Positions 25,313 through 27,020 of a stretch of 64,000 nucleotides of DNA are shown here, one piece after another (within the stretch, counting starts at the first letter, position 1; every line of letters starts with the position of its first letter). Source of the stretch: Isosphaeraceae bacterium. GTDB lineage: Bacteria; Planctomycetota; Planctomycetia; Isosphaerales; Isosphaeraceae. Position numbers and translations under genes: made by a program. Location of the stretch: positions 1 to 64,000 of the forward strand of contig JANXSX010000195.1 in assembly GCA_025356475.1 (NCBI GenBank). The letters are read 5' to 3'. The notes under the pieces are model-generated. The model searched no databases. It worked only from the letters and a program-made list of their open reading frames with translations, and was not told the origin of the DNA.

Positions 25313-25570
25313 GTGCAAGTTGCAGTTCAGCTATTCGCCGGAGCCCGCCAATTCGCTGGCAAAGCGTCGGTGATCGTCGAGCTGATTGAGCCCTGTACGA
25401 TCGCCAATCTCAAGACCGCACTTGCCCTGGCGATCCCCGCGCTGGCCCCCCTGCTCCCTTCGACCCGGTTCGCGATCAATATGGAATACGCCAGCGACGA
25501 CGATACGATTCCTCAAGGTGCGGAAGTGGCCGCGATCCCGCCGGTCAGTGGAGGCTCGGAGCCACGATGA
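25313..25570 (+). CDS. moaD: Molybdopterin synthase sulfur carrier subunit MoaD, with residues after the di-glycine
   Basis: MoaD is the beta-grasp small subunit that carries a C-terminal thiocarboxylate for dithiolene formation. From GTG 25313 it reads MQVAVQLFAGARQFAG and ends IPPVSGGSEPR. MoaD proteins normally end exactly at the Gly-Gly; here SEPR follows. The four extra codons overlap the moaE ribosome-binding site and start (TGA 25568-25570 overlaps ATG 25567). A longer frame back to 25196 lacks family similarity. First gene of moaD-moaE-moaA. Confidence 0.9.
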   Translation: MQVAVQLFAGARQFAGKASVIVELIEPCTIANLKTALALAIPALAPLLPSTRFAINMEYASDDDTIPQGAEVAAIPPVSGGSEPR

Positions 25571-26004
25571 TTGCGATTACGCGCGAACCGATCGACCATG
25601 CTGCAATCACCGAAAGTGTCCGGTCCAACCTGGCGGGAGCCGTCTGTTCGTTCTTGGGCACGGTTCGCGAGCTGACCCAGGGGAAGCAAACGTCGTCGCT
25701 GGAATACGAAGCCTATCCCGCAATGGCGCTCAAAAAGCTGGAGGAGCTTGCCGTCGAGGCTCGTCATCGGTGGCCAATTGTTACGTTAGCGATTGTCCAC
25801 CGAGTTGGCCCACTGGAACTGGGAGAGATCGCCGTCGTGGTGGCAGTGAGCTGCCCGCACCGGGGTGAATCGTTTGAAGCTTGCAAGTGGTTAATGGATA
25901 CGATCAAAGAGGTTGTGCCGATCTGGAAGCGTGAACTCTGGGCGGACGGCACTGAGGAATGGGTCCACCCTGGTGTCGCCACTGGACCAGCTCCGGTAGA
26001 ATGA
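25567..26004 (+). CDS. moaE: Molybdopterin synthase catalytic subunit MoaE
   Basis: MoaE (145 residues) uses two MoaD thiocarboxylates to convert cyclic pyranopterin monophosphate into molybdopterin. Family blocks are AVCSFLGTVRE, LEYEAYPAMA, VHRVGPLELGEIAVVVAVSCPHR and VPIWKREL, the last holding the catalytic lysine. Both gene borders are ATGA overlaps (with moaD at 25567 and moaA at 26001), so all three are translationally coupled. Confidence 0.97.
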   Translation: MIAITREPIDHAAITESVRSNLAGAVCSFLGTVRELTQGKQTSSLEYEAYPAMALKKLEELAVEARHRWPIVTLAIVHRVGPLELGEIAVVVAVSCPHRGESFEACKWLMDTIKEVVPIWKRELWADGTEEWVHPGVATGPAPVE

Positions 26005-27020
26005 TGGTTATGAACACCTCCACAGCCGCCGTTAACCGCCTGATCGACCGCTTCGGTCGAGTGCATAACAACCTGCGGATCAGCGTAACCGACCGCTGCA
26101 ATATCCGTTGTGTTTACTGCATGCCCGAGAATGTCGAGTTCCTCCCTAAGCAGAGCTTGCTCAGCTATGAGGAAATTGAGCGGTTTGTGCGAGTCGCAGT
26201 GACGCAAGGTATCGACAAGATCCGGCTCACGGGGGGCGAGCCGCTGGTTCGCAAGGACCTACCTCGGCTGGTCGAGATCATCGCCAAGATCCCCGGCATT
26301 AAGGATGTCGGGTTAACGACCAACGGCATCTTGCTCGCCCCGATGGCCAAGGCCCTCTGGGATGCGGGTTTGCGTCGGATCAATATTAGTTTAGATACAC
26401 TCGACCCGCAGAGGTTCCTGGAACTCACGCGCCGGACGGGCGTCGAACAGGTGATCGAGGGGATCCATGCCGCCAAGGCGGCGGGTTTCGACCCTGTGAA
26501 AATCAATGCGGTCGCGATCAAGGGAGTGACCGAAGCCGACGTCGTTCCCTTGGCCAAATTCTCACGCGAGTATGGCCTGGAACTCCGATTCATCGAGTAC
26601 ATGCCGCTCGACGCCGGCGACCAGTGGGAGCGTGGCAAGGTCCTGTTCGCTGCGGAGATCCTTGATCTGCTCTCCCAGGGGATCTCGCCTCTGCTGCCCG
26701 ACCCCAAATCCGATCCACGAGCCCCTGCGCAGGATTACGACTATATTGACGGTGGCGGGCGTGTCGGCCTGATCGCCTCGGTCAGCCGGCCCTTCTGCAT
26801 GAGCTGTAACCGGGTCCGGCTCACCGCTGACGGCAAGCTCCGCAACTGCCTCTTCGCTCTCAATGAGACTGATATTCGTGACCTGATCCGCGGGGGCAGC
26901 GACGACGAAACACTTGCCAAAGCGTTGCGAGATAGTGTCGCCGACAAGTGGGAAGGGCACGAAATCAACACAGCGCGTTTCATCAAGCCCGACCGACTCA
27001 TGCACTCGATCGGCGGCTAA
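26001..27020 (+). CDS. moaA: GTP 3',8-cyclase MoaA (radical SAM)
   Basis: MoaA converts GTP to 3',8-cyclo-GTP in the first step of molybdenum cofactor synthesis. The radical-SAM cluster motif CNIRCVYC (C33, C37, C40) is followed by RLTGGEPLVRKDL. The C-terminal auxiliary cluster CMSCNRVRL...LRNC and the final Gly-Gly (SIGG), needed for activation by MoaC-system enzymes, are intact. Start 26001 overlaps the moaE stop as ATGA. No moaC is seen nearby. Confidence 0.97.
   Translation: MMVMNTSTAAVNRLIDRFGRVHNNLRISVTDRCNIRCVYCMPENVEFLPKQSLLSYEEIERFVRVAVTQGIDKIRLTGGEPLVRKDLPRLVEIIAKIPGIKDVGLTTNGILLAPMAKALWDAGLRRINISLDTLDPQRFLELTRRTGVEQVIEGIHAAKAAGFDPVKINAVAIKGVTEADVVPLAKFSREYGLELRFIEYMPLDAGDQWERGKVLFAAEILDLLSQGISPLLPDPKSDPRAPAQDYDYIDGGGRVGLIASVSRPFCMSCNRVRLTADGKLRNCLFALNETDIRDLIRGGSDDETLAKALRDSVADKWEGHEINTARFIKPDRLMHSIGG

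Follow-up and report, generated by a model that had tools for sequence, protein, structure and literature searches.

The moaD gene described here very probably encodes a pro-MoaD, in which a four-residue tail (SEPR) would be cut off after the Gly-Gly motif by a JAMM-type protease encoded on contig C229 of the same genome, with the usual thiocarboxylation following. The features which carry this reading were read from the sequences themselves, namely the tail, its variability among relatives, an intact protease gene and the co-occurrence of masked MoaD ends with JAMM genes. Adenylation by MoeB and thiocarboxylation both require a free C-terminal glycine, and in the proposed mechanism the SEPR tail would block this residue. 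The stand-alone JAMM/Mec-type metalloprotease of C229 is predicted to cut after Gly-Gly, and the mature MoaD would then work normally with MoaE. According to the published accounts discussed below, JAMM trimming of fused MoaD and of archaeal precursors is already known, and the present case would be a short bacterial tail of that kind. New in our study are the graded range of states in a single family, from direct stop to fusion, the preference for small residues just after Gly-Gly and the phylum-wide link with JAMM.

The moaD locus and its encoded tail

The window, i.e. the whole analysed stretch of 64,000 nucleotides, carries moaD, for the small subunit of molybdopterin synthase in precursor form, on the forward strand at 25313..25570, with a GTG start, 85 amino acids and a TGA stop; the start at 25313 was set by alignment with relatives, the mechanical list of open reading frames beginning upstream at a TTG. 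The C-terminus as encoded is PPVSGG-SEPR-stop. The Gly-Gly codons (GGA GGC, 25550..25555) form the expected mature C-terminus, with the predicted cut after 25555, and they are followed on the same strand by the tail codons TCG GAG CCA CGA (25556..25567), which were read directly. The ThiS family profile (PF02597) matches MoaD residues 5-81 with an E-value of 7.3e-10, up to its last position, and as this match ends at the second glycine, SEPR lies outside the domain. The presence of four residues after the Gly-Gly, reported in the initial annotation, is thus confirmed by the SGGSEPR-stop reading beyond the end of PF02597.

The stop codon of moaD (TGA, 25568-25570) and the start codon of moaE (ATG from 25567) share an ATGA overlap at 25567..25570. 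On the forward strand, moaE, the large subunit of molybdopterin synthase, extends over 25567..26004 (PF02391, 4.9e-41), and the solved structures related to it in sequence are those of MoaE proteins; likewise, the best solved matches of the family MoaD profile are molybdopterin synthase small subunits. The next gene in the same direction (26001..27020, with a provisional start) is moaA-like and was recognised by eye from its radical-SAM-like sequence; its frame is listed from 25959, and candidate ATG starts in this frame lie at 26001, 26004 and 26010. Two motifs, GGAGG (25550-25554) and GGAG (25558-25561), were found by eye 12 and 5 bases 5' of the moaE ATG, and it is plausible that the tail region doubles as the ribosome-binding region of moaE.

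The protein therefore has the ThiS/MoaD beta-grasp domain with Gly-Gly, and its gene adjoins, indeed overlaps, moaE. A free C-terminal glycine is absent as encoded, SEPR standing after Gly-Gly, and for this reason the MoaD has been filed as a precursor. It differs from a MoaX-type fusion, in which MoaD and MoaE share one frame, as the two genes here are separate and overlapping. Coding past Gly-Gly, as expected of a JAMM-matured Ubl/MoaD precursor, is seen here and in 32 of the 41 family genomes with this gene.

Variation of the MoaD end among relatives

Homologues of this MoaD were found in 41 of 45 genomes of the same family, its own included. A stop codon directly after Gly-Gly is present in nine of the 41, tails of 2-21 residues in 29 and in-frame MoaD-MoaE fusions in two (L045 and L046, both of genus g18 in the window genome's family). 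One locus (L007, 1738-2277) has 180 extra residues, the first part of which matches the MshEN domain, and its stop still overlaps moaE as ATGA. The tails are unalike except among a few near relatives, and masked and direct-stop states are both present within the single genera g2, g6, g17 and g20. In the window and in most loci of the family, moaD is followed by moaE. Where the moaE start of a tailed locus could be placed (28 loci, the window's among them), the two genes overlap in 19 cases, by four bases in 17 of these, as against none of the eight direct-stop loci. Such a pattern would be expected if the protease tolerates many tails, so that the moaD stop may have drifted within the family, often to the moaE start, and in one genus such drift would have led to the full MoaD-MoaE fusion.

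The initial annotation had held that relatives with a direct stop would point to a sequence error, the true gene ending after Gly-Gly. Nine of the 41 relatives do stop there, yet the 32 others are masked in different ways, some of them in assemblies of only 4-9 contigs, and the four-base overlap with moaE recurs in 17 of the 28 tailed loci. A sequence error is hence considered ruled out, with hardly any probability left to it.

When the related MoaD tails were aligned, as had also been proposed, Gly-Gly was found constant and the tails variable. PVSGG stands at the expected end in 28 of 28 aligned family MoaDs, and Gly-Gly is retained in all 63 distinct masked loci scored. Likewise, every one of the 192 MoaD loci scored has it, aligned to the last profile columns, although the search used a profile whose own end is Gly-Gly, and MoaD loci without the motif could be missed. 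This retention disfavours the other proposal of the initial annotation, that the carboxylate chemistry is not at Gly-Gly. It also bears on the reading in which the tail is kept, MoaD-SEPR is dead or non-canonical, and a CysO-like carrier on contig C105 serves MoaE. That carrier has a free Gly-Gly (AVAGG), and its gene neighbours are an E1 of its own and a gene resembling pyridoxal-dependent synthases, which would suit such a role. Against it stand the PVSGG kept despite differing tails, the position of moaE directly after moaD and the published work in which fused MoaD was active only after cleavage (PMC4326299, PMC4443979). In addition, moaC, a MoeB-like E1 with a rhodanese-like end (seen by eye) and molybdopterin oxidoreductase matches are present in the genome, from which the cofactor is presumably made and the pathway seemingly in use. 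We regard this substitution as very unlikely, and trimming of a pro-MoaD as the preferred explanation.

Of 547 named-record loci matching a pattern that ends in IPPVSGG, the 80 examined, which are not a fair sample, comprised 42 direct stops, 28 MoaD-MoaE fusions and 10 other tails. Five of these ten are titled Planctomycetota, Isosphaeraceae or Singulisphaera (L235, L236, L237, L239 and L246), and in one (L250) the end is set by the contig extent or is ambiguous. The remaining short tails are ADV in Methylomirabilota, AHV in Abditibacteriales, AF in Bacteroidia and SDAV in Chloroflexi, going by record titles (L272, L287, L295 and L298); each has moaE nearby and a tail starting with Ala or Ser. 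Short tails are therefore not confined to Planctomycetota.

The residue directly after Gly-Gly also deviates from the rest of the tail. In the family short tails, Ser, Ala, Gly, Thr or Cys occupies this position in 26 of 29 cases versus 67 of 222 residues further along the tail, and in the 27 phylum fusions outside the family a small residue is present in 16 of 27 versus 90 of 270 linker residues; the p-values of both comparisons are too small owing to relatedness. Counted by genus, only small residues stand directly after Gly-Gly in 12 of 15. Lys, Arg, His, Pro, Trp, Phe and Tyr are absent from this position in all 29 family tails and all 27 of these fusions. By reasoning, a TGA stop lost through one substitution would in many cases become Arg, Leu or Trp, and the 29 tails show none of these there. 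In the archaeal JAMM CsRpn11, a Gly just after Gly-Gly was reported to speed cleavage and a Glu to stop it (PMC6043591). Glu nevertheless stands there in two family members, which speaks against the JAMM reading, and in six of the 27 phylum fusions. Of four tails in other families of the phylum, two start with Ile and one with Leu, and among the named masked MoaDs of other phyla six start with His and one with Leu. Because of these Glu, Ile, Leu and His exceptions, the small-residue trend is not general.

Masking and JAMM proteases

Two Prok-JAB proteins are encoded in the genome, on contigs C165 and C229. The search for a JAMM/Mec-type protease gene, suggested along with the tail, thus succeeded with C229, whose complete gene encodes a free-standing metalloprotease of at most 150 residues (PF14464, 8.8e-19). 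The catalytic E, HSHP and S..D are intact and invariant in 20 aligned family members, and the best solved matches by sequence profile are 2KKS, 2KCQ and JAMM1 (5LDA, 5LD9). Relatives of this JAMM are present in 43 of the 45 family genomes; every one of the 41 with MoaD is among them. The gene lies beside a cysteine synthase, and a homologue of the latter occurs within 1.5 kb of the JAMM in 28 of 30 loci checked among the 43 found. This gene context suggests that the enzyme acts, in the manner of Mec, on a CysO-type carrier, and it counts against the JAMM reading in so far as the main role of the enzyme may be on a CysO-type adduct. The same JAMM may, we infer, serve both the CysO-type carrier and MoaD.

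The tail might instead be removed by another protease, such as a carboxypeptidase of general action or the C165 JAB protein. In favour of this are the second JAB-domain protein itself, a fused genome of the phylum (G198) with no JAB-type hit, and the protease of MoaX, which is unnamed in the available text of PMC4326299. The C165 protein, however, is encoded next to ubiquitin-like, E2 and E1 genes of its own, contains what looks by eye like a membrane stretch, and probably has its own substrate; a carboxypeptidase could hardly handle the 180-residue extension or the fusions of the same family. Removal by such an enzyme is accordingly thought unlikely, and the C229 JAMM remains the favoured candidate.

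Other carriers and proteases of the genome were also noted. The C165 run (L049, 4120-7672) consists of a YukD-type ubiquitin-like protein, E2 (UQ_con), E1 (ThiF) and the JAB protein with a long C-terminal part, and looks like a bacterial ubiquitin-like conjugation operon. On C105 (L050, 4063-8123), threonine-synthase-like, CysO-like carrier (ending AVAGG), E1 and aminotransferase class V-like genes form what is probably a carrier-based sulfur pathway, the carrier and E1 alone having been matched to families. A second masked sulfur carrier occurs on C192 (L051, 6565-7821), where ThiS runs in frame into ThiG (VGGG followed by SG). A second MoaD was not seen in the genome; its other two ThiS-family matches are this fusion and the CysO-like carrier. 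The ThiS-ThiG matches listed include many with a stop between the parts, or ThiG alone, and an unbroken full-length frame was found in at least four of 214 phylum genomes (G000, G046, G105 and G149). All four have a JAB hit (best E-values 8.3e-23 to 1.1e-8), JAB hits being common in the sample (125 of 214 genomes). As a lead, the same JAMM may free ThiS from the ThiS-ThiG protein of the window genome. In two genomes of another family (f12; L331 and L332), with the tail Ile-Arg, the JAMM adjoins a CysO-like carrier and is unlike that of the window genome, with no match to its profile.

In the phylum sample, MoaD was found in 149 of 214 genomes, of which 148 were classified as 32 masked (27 fusions and five tails, the window's own included) and 116 unmasked; G191 was left out of the classes, as were second matches in G125, G146 and the family genome G023 (C49). 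A Prok-JAB hit at E<=1e-9, a cut-off picked after the data had been seen, is present in 31 of 32 masked genomes versus 26 of 116 with an exposed Gly-Gly (Fisher 4e-15), and this and the related co-occurrence figures are inflated by relatedness. At 1e-3, the figures are 31 of 32 and 52 of 116, and with the narrower JAMM profile A1 they are 25 of 32 and 18 of 116. The moaE gene was not seen in the fetched stretch of 20 of the 116 unmasked genomes, some of which may hold other MoaD-like carriers; restricted to the 96 with moaE, a good JAMM is present in 21. Counted by family, at least one such JAMM occurs in seven of seven families with masking versus 15 of 37 others (p 0.009). For 20 of the 31 masked genomes with such a hit, the JAMM region was retrieved: 13 fit the strict HSHP...S..D pattern and the other seven keep HxH...D by eye, one with the spacing one residue shorter.

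The good JAMM hits in 26 of the 116 unmasked genomes argue against the JAMM reading, as does G198, a fusion in a 91% complete genome without a JAB-type hit. JAMM without masking is common, and hence the protease seems to permit masking and not to require it. In a MoaD+MoaE tree of 188 rows (23 without MoaE), 15 masking changes were counted, nine of them in the window genome's own family. Only three supported independent pairs (two without the own family) were obtained, too few for significance; JAMM changed the same way in 1.8 on average and the opposite way in 0.0. Taken with the intact JAMM gene, the kept Gly-Gly and the published precedents, the co-occurrence of masking and JAMM supports the proposal of the initial annotation that the tail is trimmed by a protease.

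Known systems and the meaning of the tail

Mec+ is a JAMM-type protease. In mycobacteria it was reported to hydrolyse the CysO-cysteine adduct, linked to a sulfur carrier and cysteine synthase (PMC3227635), and the JAMM of the window genome also adjoins cysteine synthase; the described substrate of Mec+ is, however, this adduct and not an encoded tail. In the M. tuberculosis MoaX, a MoaD-MoaE fusion, the cut between Gly82 and Ser83 was found to be needed for activity (PMC4326299). There, as in the window MoaD, Gly-Gly is masked by extra sequence starting with Ser, whereas the mask is an entire MoaE domain in place of four residues. A further bacterial case is provided by Deinococcus radiodurans, where DRJAMM (DR0402) cleaves the MoaD-MoaE fusion DR2607 and leaves a C-terminal Gly (PMC8832034); here too a bacterial MoaD is matured by a JAMM, although DR2607 is a fusion and the window protein has a short tail.

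Among archaea, HvJAMM1 of Haloferax was described to cut SAMP1-MoaE after Gly-Gly, also in vivo, restoring molybdopterin synthase (PMC4443979). SAMP1 is a MoaD-type protein ending VSGG with a JAMM cut after Gly-Gly; on the other hand, SAMP1-MoaE is an artificial fusion in an archaeon with its own samp1 and moaE as separate genes. In Caldiarchaeum, CsUb has a nine-residue tail past Gly-Gly and CsJAMM cleaves CsSAMP precursors, those named being Csub_C0702 and Csub_C1603, the latter labelled CsMoaD (PMC6043591). This archaeal system, to which CsRpn11 also belongs, resembles ours in its encoded tail after Gly-Gly and JAMM processing. Many bacterial MoaD-MoaE fusions have been noted, the phyla named in the available part of that source not including Planctomycetes (PMC4443979), and a survey counted such fusions in 775 of 33957 bacterial genomes (PMC11237513). 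In our literature search, with most subscription journals outside its coverage, no title or abstract opening dealt with a short-tailed bacterial MoaD. QbsE/QbsD was considered as well, the search for it yielding no paper.

These precedents also bring up a regulatory function, in which uncut MoaD would be a stored inactive form and JAMM activity would set the cofactor output. HvJAMM1 turned SAMP1-linked MoaE back into active synthase (PMC4443979), and MoaX cleavage is described as slow or regulated (PMC4326299). The tails are, however, unconserved and absent in nine of the 41 family genomes, and both states occur within single genera, which drift fits better than conserved control; such a storage role is rated improbable. 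Returning to simple maturation of a pro-MoaD, a wider reading is possible and falls a little short of probable: a permissive JAMM may have freed the moaD stop from selection, so that it would have shifted again and again, both in this family and in other parts of the phylum, and tails, overlap, the 180-residue extension and the fusions would be steps of one path, with ThiS-ThiG perhaps also cut and a small residue directly after Gly-Gly as the main rule left within the family.

For annotators, these outcomes suggest that extra codons in a MoaD-like gene probably mark a precursor and not an error. A tailed moaD moved to a host without the protease may fail, as was reported for MoaX, which failed to complement E. 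coli mutants (PMC3227635). The family would further offer a natural series from separate genes to a fused precursor. Our study suggests how, given a general protease, a gene need not itself fix the protein end that catalysis requires.
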